From Mariprofundaceae bacterium (GTDB lineage: Bacteria; Pseudomonadota; Zetaproteobacteria; Mariprofundales; Mariprofundaceae): a stretch of 64,000 bases of DNA. Position 1 is the first letter of the stretch, and every line of letters begins with the position of its first letter. The stretch spans positions 1-64,000 of the forward strand of contig JAUZQO010000007.1 in assembly GCA_030950925.1 (NCBI GenBank). Reading direction: 5' to 3'. This document shows positions 9,430-35,741 of this stretch, piece by piece. The position numbers were made by a program, and so were the translations under genes. The notes beneath the pieces are model-generated. The model did no database searches and had not been told where the DNA came from. It was given only the letters and a program-made list of their open reading frames with translations.

Positions 9430-9691
9430 ACAATCGGTGTTGATTCAGAATCGTTTGGGTTTGCATGCCCGAGCTTCGGCAGCCTTTGCGACGACGGCAG
9501 GAAAATTCCACAGTGAGATTGGTTTACGTAAGGGTGATATGCAGGTGAATGGTAAAAGTATCATGGGAATTATGATGTTGGCGGCTGCAAAAGGGACGCA
9601 CTTGATGTTGCTAACGGATGGTGAAGATGAACAAGCTGCCATGCAAGCCTTGGTGGGCTTGCTGGCGGACTGTTTCGGTGAACCAGACTGA
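9422..9691 (+). CDS. ptsH: Phosphocarrier protein HPr
   Basis: 89 residues. Both regulatory sites are intact: His15 in NRLGLHARASA, phosphorylated by Enzyme I, and Ser46 in VNGKSIMGIM, the HprK target. The start lies inside the end of the EIIA-Man gene (eight-base overlap), and the stop overlaps the ptsI start. HPr passes phosphate from Enzyme I to the EIIA proteins of the cluster. Confidence 0.95.
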   Translation: MIEQSVLIQNRLGLHARASAAFATTAGKFHSEIGLRKGDMQVNGKSIMGIMMLAAAKGTHLMLLTDGEDEQAAMQALVGLLADCFGEPD

Positions 9692-11346
9692 TGACAAAGC
9701 AGCCCATGGAAGGGCATGCGATTGCCAGTAGTCATGGCATTGTCATTGGACAGGTTCAAAAATTGAATGTTGGAAGCCCTAAAATACCTGAGTATGTTTT
9801 GAATGCAAAGGATGTAAACAGGGAACAACAGCGTTTGGAGCAAGCCACATTTGCGGCACTGGAAGAGCTAAATGTGGAATATGAATATTTACTTCAATTG
9901 AAACAGCAAGAACCCGTGTTGATTTTGGATGCGCATCGCATGTTATTGAAAGATCCCGAGTTTATCGCATATCCCAAAAGCTTGATTGAACATGAATACA
10001 TGAATGCTGAATGGGCATTAAAACAGCAAGTTGAAAACATTGCAGCAACCTTTGATGGGATGCATGATAGTTATTTGCGTAGTAAGCGTTTAGACATTGA
10101 GCAAGTGGGAGAACGCTTGATGCGACATTTGTTGGCATGCCCATTTCAAGCCGACATTCAGCCACACACGCTGCCTGTGGTGGTCATTGCGCAAGATGTG
10201 AGTCCTGCGGATATGATGACACTTTGGCGCTCGGGTGTGGCAGGCATGATTTGTGAGCAGGGTAGTTTGAACGCGCATGCGATGATTATGGCTCGCGGTA
10301 TTGGTATGCCTGCTTTGATGGGTGTGGAGATGGATTTAGCATCGGTGGAAGATGGTATGTTGGTGATATTGGATGCCGAACGTGATTATTGGAAGTTGTG
10401 CCCCAACGAAGATGAACAGCGTGCTTATCAACGGTTTATGGATGCATTTGCTGTGGTACGAAAGGGTTTAATGCGTTTTTCCTCAAAAAAATCGCTCAGC
10501 CAAGATAAGGTGGCGCTACCGCTGTATGCCAATATTGATTGTCAGGATGAACTTAGTTTTGCCATGCAAGTGGGGGCTGAGTCGATTGGCTTATGTCGTA
10601 CGGAGTTTGTTTTTTTGCATCATCGTCGTGAACCCACAGAAGATGAGCAGTTTAAGCACTATTTACAGATGCTTCAAAGTGCTGTGGGCTTAGAAATCAC
10701 TTTTCGTTTGTTGGATATTGGTGGGGACAAGCCCATATTGTTTCAAAAAATTGCAGGTCATGATTACCTTGCGAGTAACCCCAATTTGGGTTTGCGAGGT
10801 GTTCGTTTGTTGTTGGCTGCCCCGCATATTCTGGAAACACAATTAAGGGCTTTGTTGCGTGCTTCACAATATGGAAAAATACGTGTGCTTGTGCCGATGG
10901 TGACGCAATGTGAAGAAATGGAGCAGGTGCATAGGCTGATGATGAGCTGTAGCGAAGATTTGAATATCGAGCCTGTACCGTTGGGTTGTATGATTGAAGT
11001 GCCTGCAGCGGTGATGCTGGCGGATGATTTGGCGAGTGTATCGGATTTTTTTGCCATTGGGAGCAATGATTTAACCCAATATACCTTTGCCGCTGATCGA
11101 GGTGATGAAGAAGTGGCATGTTACTACCAAGATGCTCACCCCATTATCCTGAATATGATTGAACGTGTGGTGAGGGCAGGGCATGAACAAGGTTTGACGG
11201 TGTGTGTGTGTGGCGAACTTGCAGCCAATCCCGATTGCACACAAGCTTTTTTGGATATGGGTATGGATGCCTTGTCGATGAGTTTACATAGTATTTTGCC
11301 GATACGTCAGTGTTTAAGCCGATTAAAACGCAGCAAGAATATATAG
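9691..11346 (+). CDS. ptsI: Phosphoenolpyruvate-protein phosphotransferase (PTS Enzyme I), C-terminus shortened
   Basis: 551 residues. The phospho-His is His196 in GSLNAHAMIMARGIGMPALMG. The C-terminal PEP-binding barrel is present (GLCRTEFVFLHH, LDIGGDKP, NPNLGLRGVR, FAIGSNDLTQYTFAADR). Enzyme I transfers phosphate from PEP to HPr. The family is usually about 570-575 residues. Here the protein stops shortly after GMDALSMSLHSILPI, where relatives continue for roughly 25-30 residues. The TAG stop lies inside the left end of a mobile element starting at 11342, so the last helix has probably been lost by insertion. The barrel core is intact; whether dimerisation or activity suffers cannot be told from the sequence. 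Confidence 0.92.
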   Translation: MTKQPMEGHAIASSHGIVIGQVQKLNVGSPKIPEYVLNAKDVNREQQRLEQATFAALEELNVEYEYLLQLKQQEPVLILDAHRMLLKDPEFIAYPKSLIEHEYMNAEWALKQQVENIAATFDGMHDSYLRSKRLDIEQVGERLMRHLLACPFQADIQPHTLPVVVIAQDVSPADMMTLWRSGVAGMICEQGSLNAHAMIMARGIGMPALMGVEMDLASVEDGMLVILDAERDYWKLCPNEDEQRAYQRFMDAFAVVRKGLMRFSSKKSLSQDKVALPLYANIDCQDELSFAMQVGAESIGLCRTEFVFLHHRREPTEDEQFKHYLQMLQSAVGLEITFRLLDIGGDKPILFQKIAGHDYLASNPNLGLRGVRLLLAAPHILETQLRALLRASQYGKIRVLVPMVTQCEEMEQVHRLMMSCSEDLNIEPVPLGCMIEVPAAVMLADDLASVSDFFAIGSNDLTQYTFAADRGDEEVACYYQDAHPIILNMIERVVRAGHEQGLTVCVCGELAANPDCTQAFLDMGMDALSMSLHSILPIRQCLSRLKRSKNI

Positions 11347-11479
11347 TGATTCAAGTATTAAATCAGCCCCGTCATTCCCGAAATCTTTTATCGGGAATCT
11401 AATGATAGACCCTCGATACAAGCACTCAAGGGTGACGATTGGATGATATAAATGATAGTTCTATACTTGAATGACTATA
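11342..11479. mobile_element. MITE-like inverted-repeat element, copy 1 (138 bp)
   Basis: The left end TATAGTGATTCAAGTAT and the right end, read in reverse complement (TATAGTCATTCAAGTAT), match at 16 of 17 positions. Inside are two hairpins: ATTCCCGA/TCGGGAAT (perfect 8 bp) and ACCCTCGA/TCAAGGGT (one mismatch). No coding capacity. The ends resemble the TATAGTGGATTAA ends of neisserial Correia elements, and the first hairpin resembles the widespread GTCATTCCC...GGGAATC repeats; relatedness is not shown. A second copy lies at 33004-33132. This copy separates ptsI from prlC and provides the ptsI stop codon. It is probably non-autonomous and moved by a transposase encoded elsewhere. Confidence 0.85.
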
Positions 11480-31919: not shown

Positions 31920-32225
31920 AAATATAAATCCTTAGTAGGTGGAGTGGGGTCTGTTTAAGTCGATCAGTTTTCTAGCTTCTTGGTCTTAAAAAGGTGGCAA
32001 AGCTTACGCGCATTGTTGAGTTAGGGAAATGATGATGAGGACAAGGTGTGGTACTGGGGTATCGCTTGGGAGTCTGCGGGCTTAGGGAATCGTTGTGAGA
32101 TAGCAGTGTGATTATTGGTTTGTAGCTTGAAATGAGGAGAATAGCACGGCTATTTAACGAGATGATCCTATTTGGATTTTAGGGTTGGGTGTGCCAAGCT
32201 TTCGACGTGAGAGAGGAGTGTGCAT
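31920..32225. other. Intergenic region between divergent ccdA and sensor gene
   Basis: About 306 bases without a convincing gene. It should hold the promoters of ccdA (minus) and the sensor gene (plus), but I see no clear -35/-10 pair or inverted repeat. The plus-strand end carries a strong GAGAGAGGAG ribosome-binding site for ATG 32226. Confidence 0.5.
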
Positions 32226-33008
32226 ATGCGGGTGTTTTTTATTTGTTTGTTGGGTTTGTTGATGTCGCCTTTTGTGGCGAAATCTGCACCCATACATATT
32301 CAATTGCAGTTGAAGTGGAAGCATCAGTTTCAATTTGCAGGTTATTATATGGCACTGGAAAAGGGTTATTATCGAGATGTGGGTTTGGATGTTGAAATTT
32401 TAGAGGGTGAACCCAGTGAGCATGCAACAAAGTTTTTGAAGCAAGGTAGACACCGCTATGCTGTTGGGGAAACATCAGATATGCTGGCTTATGTTAAAGG
32501 TGAAAAAATACGCATTTTGATGGCGTTGTACCAGCATTCACCGAAAGTAGTTATTGTACGAGAAGACTCTGGCATTCGGCATTTTTCAGAGCTGTCGGGT
32601 CATCGTTTGATGTTGAGTGAAGGTTTGAAGTATGGTGAAATTCGGGCTGCTTTGGAGGCATCGGGTGTTCATGTAGATGATGTGACAGTTGAACAGAATG
32701 ATGCGTATGTGATTGAGTCACTGCAACGGGGTACTGTGGATGGGATGAGTGCTTACCTAAGTAATGAACCTTATACGTTGGATCAGATGGGAGTGCCATA
32801 CCGTATCTTACATCCTAGAGACATTGGTATTGATTTTTATGATGATTTTTTATTAACATCGGAAGATGAGGTGGTTTTATACCCTCAAACTGTGCGAGCC
32901 TTTGTGAAGGCGACGAAAAAAGGCTGGCGAGATGCGATGTTGCAGCCAGAGCAAGCCATCGCTTTGATTCAAAAAAATACAATACACAGCACTTATCGCA
33001 TGATATAG
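32226..33008 (+). pseudogene. 5' half of a disrupted sensor kinase gene: signal peptide plus NMT1/THI5-like binding domain
   Basis: 260 residues from ATG 32226 behind GAGAGGAG. A signal peptide (RVFFICLLGLLMSPFVAKS) leads into an NMT1/THI5-like periplasmic binding domain: IQLQLKWKHQFQFAGYYMALEKGYYRDVGLDVEI, then the second-lobe features. The domain ends abruptly at ...STYRMI, followed by a TAG inside a mobile element (33004-33132). The missing C-terminal part (KLLYEANALLPLL...) is encoded just after the element in the same frame. The product would be an incomplete, soluble, exported domain. Related intact proteins fuse this domain to PAS-histidine kinases and are thought to sense a small ligand; pyrimidine-like ligands are known for the fold but the ligand here is unknown. 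Confidence 0.85.
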
Positions 33009-33132
33009 TGATTCAAGTATTAAACCACCGTCATTCCAGAGTACTTGTGTCTGGAATCTATCAATAGACCCTCGACACAAGGATTCGAGGGTGACAGCAA
33101 CATAATGTAGTATTCATACTTAAACGACTATA
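33004..33132. mobile_element. MITE-like inverted-repeat element, copy 2 (129 bp), inside a sensor kinase gene
   Basis: Same family as 11342-11479. Left end TATAGTGATTCAAGTAT; right end in reverse complement TATAGTCGTTTAAGTAT (14 of 17). The internal hairpins are ATTCCAGA/TCTGGAAT and ACCCTCGA/TCGAGGGT, both perfect. It brings two in-frame TAG stops (33006 and 33108) into the host gene. Its length is divisible by three, and removing 33004-33132 rejoins the host frame exactly. A TA target duplication cannot be separated from the TATA ends. The right end creates a TATAAA at 33129-33134 that could serve as a -10 box for the 3' half; no good -35 is seen. Confidence 0.88.
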
Positions 33133-33155
33133 AATTACTTTATGAAGCAAATGCA

Positions 33156-35741
33156 TTGCTGCCATTATTGGCTTGGGATCGTGTGGATGTGGGCTATATT
33201 AGCGAGCATCGCTTGAGCTTGATGATCAAAACATTTGTGCGCTTGGGTTGGTTGGACAAGCCATTTGATGTGTCTGATTTTTTGTATGATGTAGATCACT
33301 TAAGTGATGAAGAGGTGTGGTTGGAGTCACATGCTTGGCAGTTACTGGGTGCAATACTCTTTGTTTTGTTGGTTCTGGCTGCTTTGAGTTTGCGATATGC
33401 GCGCAAAGTGCTGCGTCATAAAACGGCGGAGCTGGTGGCGAGTGAAGCCATGTGGCGACACTTTGTAGACATCGCGGACATTGGTATTTTTATTCATAGT
33501 CAAGGCAAAATATTGTTTGCGAATACTTATATGTTGGAGCGTATGGGTATGACAGCAGAAGGTGTTATCGGCGTTGAGGTCGCCAAGCATATTCATTCCA
33601 ATGATTTATTGTTAGTGGCGCAACGTGTGCAAGATATTATGGAACATGACGCGGTGATTAGGGGAGAATTGGTACGTTACATTTCAGCTTCGGGGGAAAT
33701 GTTTGATGTTGAAATATCATCGCTTCGTATTCTTTTCAATGGGGATCTGGCTGTATTGGGTGTGGCGCGTGATATCACGGCGAAAAAATGTGCCGAAGCT
33801 GCTTTGAAAGCGAGTGAGGCACAGTACCGCCAGTTGGTAGAATGCTCGCCCGATGCTGTGCTTGTGCATCAAGGCGGAGCTTGGTGCTTTGCGAATTCGG
33901 CAGGGCTGAAGTTGATGGGTGCCAAAGTGATGGATGAACTGTTAGGGAAGCCTATTTTGGAATCTGTCCACCCAAATTATCATAAAATCGTGGCTGAGCG
34001 TATGAAAAAAGAGTTGTTTGAAGGTGAACCCGTGCCGTTGATCGAAGAGCGTTTCATTCGTTTGGATGGCACAGCGTTCTGGGCGGAAGTGACGGGGATT
34101 CCTGTTCAGTATAAAGCTGCTTCAGCCAGCTTGTTAATTGTACGCGACATTACAGATAGAACACAGGCGACCATACAACTGCGTCAAGAAAAACGAAAAA
34201 TGAGCATTATTTTGGATCATGCACCGATTGGTATTTGGATGAGTGACTTGAATGGCTCCATTCAATTGATTAACAAAGCCTTTACTGATGCGATGGGTAT
34301 TTCAGAGGAGACTTTTGTGGCAGCGTATGCTTATGTAGACTTATTGCCCAAAGATATGGCGGTTTCCTGTAGTGCTTCGGATCAAGCTTGTATTCAAAGC
34401 AAACAAAAGGTTGTGACGCAGGAGTACATTCCATGTGTGGATGGAAAGGTACATGTGTTTGATATTATCAAAGCGCCAGTCTTGGATGATGAAGGTGGAG
34501 TCTTGGGGGTTGTGGGTTTATCCATTGATGCCAGTGAAAGAATGGAAGCCGAAGCGGAAAAAGAACGTATGCAGCATCAAGTGGAACATACACAGCGACT
34601 TGAATCATTGGGTGTGCTTGCGGGTGGTGTGGCGCATGATTTTAACAATATTTTGGCAACTATTTTGGGTAATGCCAGCTTAATACAGTGTAAATTACCA
34701 ACTGATACCGATGTATCCTTGCATTTGCAGCGGATCGTCATGGCTTCGGAAAAAGCCAGTTTGTTATGTAGTCAAATGTTAGCATACGCAGGGCAGGGTC
34801 AAATAGCAGTGCGTTCTTTGAACATGACAGACTTGAGTCGAAGTATAGCCTCTTTGTTGGAAGTAAGTATTGGTGCTGGTGTGGATCTATCCTATGATTT
34901 GGATGCCAACCTGCCCATGGTTGATGCGGATGAAGCACAAATGCAACAGTTGGTAATGAACTTGGTCATCAATGCATCGGAAGCGATGGATGGTATGAAT
35001 GCTGGTCACATTGCACTGAAAACAAGTATGAAGAAGATCTTACCCGAAGATTTGCAGGCGGCTGTGGGTGAACCTGATGTGCGTTTGGTAGATGATTATG
35101 TGTGCTTGCAAGTGTCAGATGATGGATGTGGGATGGATGCAGATGTGTTGGGGCGTATATTTGAACCCTTTTTTACGACGAAATTTACGGGTCGAGGCTT
35201 AGGTATGAGTGCCTTGTTGGGCATAGTCCGTGCGCACAAAGGATGTTTAAGTGTGCGTAGTAAGAAAGGTGAGGGGACGCGGTTTCGTGTGTTTTTACCT
35301 GTGGGTCAGATGCTTTTTATGCCTAAAAAGGATGTGGAGCCTGTACTGCTTGTGCCCTCGAATGCGATGGGAACGGTGTTGGTGATTGACGATGATGAGA
35401 TGATTCGAGAAACCGTGGTGATGATGTTGGAAGATTTTGGTTATGAAGCCTTGGTTGCGGAAGATGGTGCAGCGGGTGTGGAAGTATATCGTCAGCACCA
35501 AGCTGATATTCAAGCGGTGTTGTTGGATGTGACCATGCCAAAAATGAATGGTTTGCAATGTTTTAAGCTGCTAAAAGAAATGAATGCTGATGTGAAAGTT
35601 TTTTTATCTTCGGGATATCAAGAGCAACAAACCTTGCAAGGTTTGGGTGATATTGATTTGGCGGGCTATATTCAAAAGCCCTACCGCCCTGAAGTTTTGG
35701 AAGAGATGTTGATCGCTGCTTTGTTGCCAAAATCACTGTGA
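33156..35741 (+). CDS. 3' half of the disrupted gene: PAS-containing hybrid sensor histidine kinase
   Basis: 861 residues from TTG 33156; host codons continue upstream to 33132, so this is a fragment of a protein of about 1130 residues. Residues 1-45 are the end of the NMT1 domain. A membrane helix (62-80) leads to three PAS domains (about 100-215, 220-340, 345-465), a histidine kinase core with H-box GGVAHDFNNILATILGN, an ATPase domain (NLVINASEAMDG, DDGCGMD, IFEPFFTTK, GRGLGMSALLG) and a C-terminal receiver with phospho-Asp in AVLLDVTMPKMNG. Without the signal peptide and most of the binding domain, ligand sensing must be lost, though a cytoplasmic or one-helix kinase might still be made. 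ATG 33222 is another possible start. Confidence 0.85.
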   Translation: MLPLLAWDRVDVGYISEHRLSLMIKTFVRLGWLDKPFDVSDFLYDVDHLSDEEVWLESHAWQLLGAILFVLLVLAALSLRYARKVLRHKTAELVASEAMWRHFVDIADIGIFIHSQGKILFANTYMLERMGMTAEGVIGVEVAKHIHSNDLLLVAQRVQDIMEHDAVIRGELVRYISASGEMFDVEISSLRILFNGDLAVLGVARDITAKKCAEAALKASEAQYRQLVECSPDAVLVHQGGAWCFANSAGLKLMGAKVMDELLGKPILESVHPNYHKIVAERMKKELFEGEPVPLIEERFIRLDGTAFWAEVTGIPVQYKAASASLLIVRDITDRTQATIQLRQEKRKMSIILDHAPIGIWMSDLNGSIQLINKAFTDAMGISEETFVAAYAYVDLLPKDMAVSCSASDQACIQSKQKVVTQEYIPCVDGKVHVFDIIKAPVLDDEGGVLGVVGLSIDASERMEAEAEKERMQHQVEHTQRLESLGVLAGGVAHDFNNILATILGNASLIQCKLPTDTDVSLHLQRIVMASEKASLLCSQMLAYAGQGQIAVRSLNMTDLSRSIASLLEVSIGAGVDLSYDLDANLPMVDADEAQMQQLVMNLVINASEAMDGMNAGHIALKTSMKKILPEDLQAAVGEPDVRLVDDYVCLQVSDDGCGMDADVLGRIFEPFFTTKFTGRGLGMSALLGIVRAHKGCLSVRSKKGEGTRFRVFLPVGQMLFMPKKDVEPVLLVPSNAMGTVLVIDDDEMIRETVVMMLEDFGYEALVAEDGAAGVEVYRQHQADIQAVLLDVTMPKMNGLQCFKLLKEMNADVKVFLSSGYQEQQTLQGLGDIDLAGYIQKPYRPEVLEEMLIAALLPKSL

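Follow-up and report, generated by a model that had tools for sequence, protein, structure and literature searches.

Two MITE families built around CGTC-tagged palindromic repeats in a zetaproteobacterial genome

In a single marine zetaproteobacterial genome (G000), two MITE families, present in dozens of near-identical copies, have dimers of CGTC-tagged palindromic repeats (REPs) at their center; the first of these families is scattered through the genome about 50 times. According to the reading preferred here, to which a probability of about 0.78 is given, MITEs carry the CGTC dimer as cargo and are themselves mobilised in trans by an IS630 transposase, and the constraint on the dimer's pairing belongs to the repeat and not to transposition. 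On the outside, the element is a non-autonomous MITE of the IS630/Tc1-mariner type, with TATAGT... ends and insertion at TA, whose transposase would be supplied in trans by a full-size IS630-family element with similar ends. The inside is a heterodimer of CGTC palindromic repeats, which would be copied along with each move of the MITE. Pairing would be kept by a constraint on the CGTC unit, most likely hairpin folding or recognition in single-stranded DNA or RNA, and the CTA tails of the units are preferred landing sites, giving rise to nested copies and offering a possible route by which MITE ends came to flank and capture dimers. MITE carriage shows one way in which CGTC hairpin repeats travel, their spread having been an open question, and supports the proposal that these repeats, without a transposase of their own, ride on unrelated transposons (PMC3733652).

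Anatomy, copy number and insertion of the element

The window (the whole stretch of 64,000 nucleotides that was analyzed) contains two copies of the first MITE (Table 1). Both are present where a preliminary description had placed them, with inverted ends that match at 16 of 17 bases in copy 1 and at 14 of 17 in copy 2. The double change reported for the first hairpin, from C-G to A-T, is exact (ATTCCCGA/TCGGGAAT in copy 1 and ATTCCAGA/TCTGGAAT in copy 2), and it separates two subfamilies, A and B, as a fixed difference. The second hairpin is kept as well, but its pairing in copy 1 is not perfect, with one mismatch (ACCCTCGA/TCAAGGGT). It had been missed that both hairpins of one MITE are a single 32-bp unit in opposite orientations, and the internal structure, at first unfamiliar, is that of a CGTC-tagged REP dimer (PMC3733652). 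Folded as single-stranded DNA, copy 1 does far better than its dinucleotide shuffles (z -5.0) and copy 2 moderately better (z -2.45).

Table 1. Features of the two MITE copies in the window and complete copies of the second MITE elsewhere in G000.
Feature	Sequence	Position	Strand	Remarks
MITE copy 1, subfamily A	window	11342..11479	+	138 bp including the TA target at both ends; empty site in G005 after removal of 136 nt
Copy 1 left terminal inverted repeat	window	11342..11358	+	TATAGTGATTCAAGTAT
Copy 1 right terminal inverted repeat	window	11463..11479	-	TATAGTCATTCAAGTAT
Copy 1 CGTC unit 1	window	11370..11401	+	CGTC ATTCCCGA AATCTTTTA TCGGGAAT CTA
Copy 1 CGTC unit 2, opposite orientation	window	11406..11437	-	CGTC ACCCTTGA GTGCTTGTA TCGAGGGT CTA; one mismatch
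MITE copy 2, subfamily B	window	33004..33132	+	129 bp
Copy 2 left terminal inverted repeat	window	33004..33020	+	TATAGTGATTCAAGTAT
Copy 2 right terminal inverted repeat	window	33116..33132	-	TATAGTCGTTTAAGTAT
Copy 2 CGTC unit 1	window	33029..33060	+	CGTC ATTCCAGA GTACTTGTG TCTGGAAT CTA
Copy 2 CGTC unit 2, opposite orientation	window	33065..33096	-	TGTC ACCCTCGA ATCCTTGTG TCGAGGGT CTA
PEP-utilising enzyme gene	window	9691..11346	+	stop codon TAG inside the left end of copy 1
NMT1 / PAS / histidine-kinase gene	window	32220..35741	+	split by copy 2 into 32220-33008 and 33156-35741
Second MITE, complete copy	C41	4074-4253
Second MITE, complete copy	C42	25117-25267
Second MITE, complete copy	C60	8794-8943
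Second MITE, complete copy	C32	4225-4375
Second MITE, complete copy	C63	10878-11048
Second MITE, complete copy	C17	52612-52845
Second MITE, complete copy	C75	131357-131630

The genome is a 1.97 Mb draft in 75 contigs, of which 931 kb were read as stretches. The element had been taken for a two-copy family, an estimate overturned by BLAST of the same genome, which gives 65 hits with copy 1 as query and 61 with copy 2. The near-complete copies comprise ~17 of subfamily A (~138 bp) and ~26 of subfamily B (129 bp), plus many fragments and nested insertions. A search with the 17-base end likewise finds a multi-copy family, with 164 matches at three mismatches or fewer (82 per strand) and eight (six and two) for a reversed control. 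Over their full length, ends and core included, many copies share 97-99% identity, and therefore what has recently spread is the whole element. An identical end sequence is found in a relative, the zetaproteobacterial MAG NORP31.

The elements start and finish with TA, their inverted ends begin with TATAG, and the TA is duplicated on insertion. When 136 nt are removed from copy 1, its flanks align across the junction with an empty site in the same-genus sister genome G005 (~95% identity upstream and ~88% downstream), so that this insertion is probably younger than the split from G005. The ends and the empty site support the earlier view of the element as a MITE with Correia-like ends, of IS630 type and with a TA target. 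In nested copies, excision in silico restores the CGTC units of the host at a single TA. Only copy 1 allows a clean empty-site test, because the gene split by copy 2 has a further frame shift elsewhere; once the flanks of copy 2 are joined, no single open frame results for the NMT1/PAS/histidine-kinase gene. The extra shift, either real or due to the assembly, seems to lie at seven consecutive A immediately 5′ of this insertion (window positions 32970-33008).

The position of copy 1, directly 3′ of the gene for a PEP-utilising enzyme to which it provides the stop codon, is what would be expected if the MITE persisted because its hairpins serve after genes as RNA elements, either as transcript ends or as stabilisers. 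In this sense, REPs have been suggested to be transcribed and to act as RNA, terminating or protecting transcripts (PMC3733652). Such a role is nonetheless an unlikely reason for the persistence of the family, since copy 2 splits a gene and a comparison with Rfam of three repeat-rich stretches gave nothing near the gathering score.

The CGTC unit and the conservation of its pairing

The repeat unit consists of a CGTC tag (with a TGTC variant), an 8-bp stem, a 9-nt loop, and a tail, which is CTA in this genome and CCA in several relatives. A scan of the 931 kb defined by the stem, with loops of 3-14 nt allowed, recovered 173 units, 163 of them with a loop of exactly 9 nt, compared with 12 once that DNA had been mononucleotide-shuffled. 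The loops, which had been said to differ strongly, thus share their length, and they also have a common core: in the 9-nt units, T is found at position 6 in 163/163 and at position 8 in 162/163, and CTT at positions 4-6 in 138/163. These 163 units and the 63 inverted pairs that they form within 931 kb amount to a high copy number with inverted dimers, the density figures not being genome-wide because the stretches were partly picked from contigs known to hold copies.

Pairing was also assessed in a stem-blind collection, whose units were chosen by tag, loop core, and tail with the stem ignored; the constancy of these three parts in the resulting alignment is not evidence, as the search required them. 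Of its 138 units, 116 pair at 8/8 positions and 18 at 7/8. For the covariation test, 62 distinct unit sequences from this genome and its relatives were used, in which the first stem pair is A-T in 60 and the second is T-A or C-G. In this set, 93.1% of the cells pair (82.4% when shuffled) and six of the eight stem pairs have changes on both sides. The doubly changed cells (71 compared with 24.6±6.5 shuffled) and the covariation score (0.403 compared with 0.198 shuffled) were reached by no shuffle, figures which are not probabilities because the copies are related. Sliding the partner column by one to three lowers pairing to 15-52%. The conservation of pairing over sequence therefore holds across many units, although it was first proposed on the thin evidence of two copies which show one fixed inter-subfamily difference only.

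The 63 inverted pairs are, without exception, made of units with different stems, while random pairing would give 18% of identical ones. Their CTA tails face each other across a linker that measures 4 bp in 55/63 of them. A preference for heterodimers has been noted before without an obvious reason, with mention of SbcCD (Di Nocera et al., 2013; PMC3733652). The instability of a perfect long palindrome is probably what keeps both units of a dimer different, and its avoidance fits here since the inverted repeats at the MITE ends already surround the dimer. In a subfamily-A MITE at C66:266-429 (L016), an extra fragment of a CGTC unit lies inside the stem of the second unit.

Template switching is a known mechanism for imperfect palindromes, and the short stems and loops of the unit would allow correction from arm to arm. 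The paired changes might then be a mutation artefact, produced by switching between hairpin arms during replication with no selection for folding. However, arm-to-arm copying leaves unexplained why the tag, the loop core, and the tail are conserved too. Besides, mismatched stems persist in a minority of units, and dimers with identical units are absent, even though switching between units would equalise them. Given this conservation of tag, loop, and tail, together with the heterogeneity of the dimers, selection on the folded hairpin is favored; template switching may contribute to the paired changes, but it is not likely to account for them.

Carriers, landing sites and recurrence

According to rules based on the terminal inverted repeats and the unit, 42 of the 43 short IS630-end pairs in the 931-kb sample hold CGTC units; the single pair without them is probably a chance pair, and an additional IS630-end pairing of 337 bp holds a degraded copy. 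Most of the units without IS630 ends lie inside a second MITE of 150-274 bp, with unrelated ends (CTGATGTTACGCA) and target duplications of ~8 bp (exact, TTATTTGA, in the C41 copy), and its complete pairs carry CGTC units in 7/7 cases. Taking both end types together, 152/163 units (93%) are found at 170 bp or less from one of them, compared with 43 of 1000 random positions, and 11/163 are without recognisable MITE ends. Matches to the second end plus tag number ~20-40 each in G000, G005, G010, and G165. A search for an autonomous partner of the second MITE found none. An IS1-like transposase at C25:271-1293 (L109; NF033558, below cut-off) adjoins a CGTC unit tail, beside a decayed second MITE, and was rejected as such a partner, having inverted ends of its own (GGCACTGGGTCAGTTGAG...).

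For the first MITE, IS630 candidates were found, whose ends are similar over the terminal 17-24 bases, and not identical. The element at C29:1284-2231 (948 bp) is bounded by TATAGTGAATCAAGAAT and TATAGTGAATCAAAAAT, encodes an IS630 transposase over two frames, and may or may not be intact. These frames (1838-2185 and 1293-1799; L107) overlap and meet at nine consecutive A, a junction that suggests a likely programmed frameshift. Its ends are less MITE-like than those of the C37 element, a fragment incomplete at the contig end, in which the first reading frame adjoins the end TATAGTAATTCAAGCATTAACA. In the congener G008, an element of 950 bp (L120) has a left and a right end that each resemble one of the two dissimilar MITE ends. 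Pfam and NCBIfam place the transposases of all three in IS630 (HTH_Tnp_IS630, DDE_3), and the CGTC hairpin unit is absent from all three elements. Judging by these sequences, an IS630 element of this kind would mobilise the MITE in trans.

The near-universal presence of the dimer between IS630 ends could mean that the MITE needs it, and the predominance of a single linker length would also suit a folded core which is read by the transposase or required for excision, so that pairing would be kept for transposition, as the preliminary description had suggested. This is less probable than either of the two alternatives considered above, because the candidate autonomous elements do without the unit, and the covarying unit also occurs outside MITEs, in the second MITE, whose ends are unrelated, and in many proteobacteria, distant genomes included, that lack such ends. 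Moreover, relatives show spacings of 20-24 bp and one unit with a 4-nt loop. Least probable of all is that CGTC units move by themselves and were repeatedly inserted into MITEs as mere landing places: the units without MITE ends, few here and abundant in distant genomes, and the fragment within a unit on C66 would agree with it, but many MITE copies are alike in core and ends, the RAYT/Y1 transposase was rejected as mobiliser after 0 CGTC units were found in 12 loci around the Y1/RAYT-type genes of the genus, and the literature reports no dedicated transposase for CGTC repeats, a broad range of transposases being suggested as their movers (PMC3733652).

The MITEs, in turn, land preferentially in CGTC units. 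Among 42 complete MITEs, 14 are in or beside a unit and 10 exactly at the TA of a CTA tail, compared with an expectation of 0.15 when every TA is counted as a possible site; were no more than 5% of the TAs tolerated, the chance of these 10 would still be 5e-4. The bias may reflect a preference either for the sequence or for a cruciform, the data being compatible with both.

The association recurs beyond this genome. Family-wide, a CGTC tag adjoins the IS630-type end in 9/74 genomes, which belong to three genera, and the second end in 8/74, with almost no control matches, some of the single matches being probably due to chance. With a broader search pattern, 69 IS630-type ends were seen to adjoin CGTC tags in G155, of another genus of the family, with several copies degraded, and G070 and G141, of two other proteobacterial families, contain TATAG...CTATA elements with CGTC dimers. 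Several of the units in G155 (L236-L243) have 5-nt loops or loop inserts.

Relation to known repeats and MITEs

By its sequence and form, the unit is a member of the CGTC-tagged REP superfamily, and it is treated here as a divergent subfamily outside the four described families. This superfamily includes dRS3 of Neisseria (for counts, see PMC2267715) and the RPEs of Rickettsia, RPE-4/6 (PMC3733652). The unit shares with the described members the CGTC tag, a stem of 8 bp (8-9 bp in the described ones) starting with A-T, a short unpaired tail, frequent inverted dimers, and common heterodimers. It differs from them in the loop (9 nt instead of 4-5 nt, other lengths being reported for some members), the tail (CTA instead of CCA), the linker (mostly 4 bp instead of ~20), the second stem pair (T-A or C-G, whereas A/T is described as almost invariable in the first and second positions), and the location, which is nearly always inside MITEs here (PMC3733652). 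The 9-nt and 4-nt loop forms are tied together by mixed dimers in six relatives (G004, G009, G165, G248, G278, and G211), in which the two units of one MITE differ, one having a 9-nt loop and the other the classic loop of 4 nt.

Among 299 genomes of the phylum, 73 contain the pattern GTCATTCCCG...CGGGAATC (reversed control, 0), with up to ~490 copies per genome and often as inverted pairs. The classic form, CGTC-ATTCCCGC-4 nt-GCGGGAAT-CCA, is present at twelve loci from distant genomes, mostly in pairs ~20 bp apart, and no MITE ends were seen by eye at these twelve. In G113, a distant genome with ~490 copies, CGTC units lie head to tail with a spacing of 61 bp (C1:10685-10833; L177). It is conceivable, though doubtful, that the CGTC superfamily spreads mainly as cargo of unrelated DDE transposons, and that carriers landing in the tails repeatedly build REP-MITE composites across the Proteobacteria. 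A single IS630 transposase and a single marked cassette would now suffice for a direct test of how these repeats spread. The element also illustrates clearly how covarying base pairs within a mobile element can mirror a constraint on its cargo.

Among the IS630-type MITEs, Correia/NEMIS and RUP (PMC2229807) have in common with the present element the TATAG-type ends, the TA duplication, a length of 100-200 bp, dozens of copies, and ends that resemble an IS630 element, which is here one of the genus; other mobile elements also serve as insertion sites for RUP. With Correia/NEMIS the common ground, as drawn from the published description, is limited to the TATAG/TA logic (PMC2229807). In contrast to all of these, the core is here a CGTC REP heterodimer, and insertion favors the tails of CGTC units. 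QMITE2 of Coxiella (PMC5896051) is a MITE that contains a REP, occurs also as a REP-like short version, and whose REP is the target for another transposon, IS1111; this GTAG-type precedent means that the REP-in-MITE kind was already known. It involves, however, a GTAG-type REP, duplications of 7-11 bp, and one MITE type in one species, whereas the REP described here is of the CGTC type and resides in two unrelated MITE types, in several genera and more than one family. As far as the non-subscription literature shows, three findings are new: the presence of a CGTC-type REP in two unrelated MITEs, the recurrence of this arrangement, and the landing preference.
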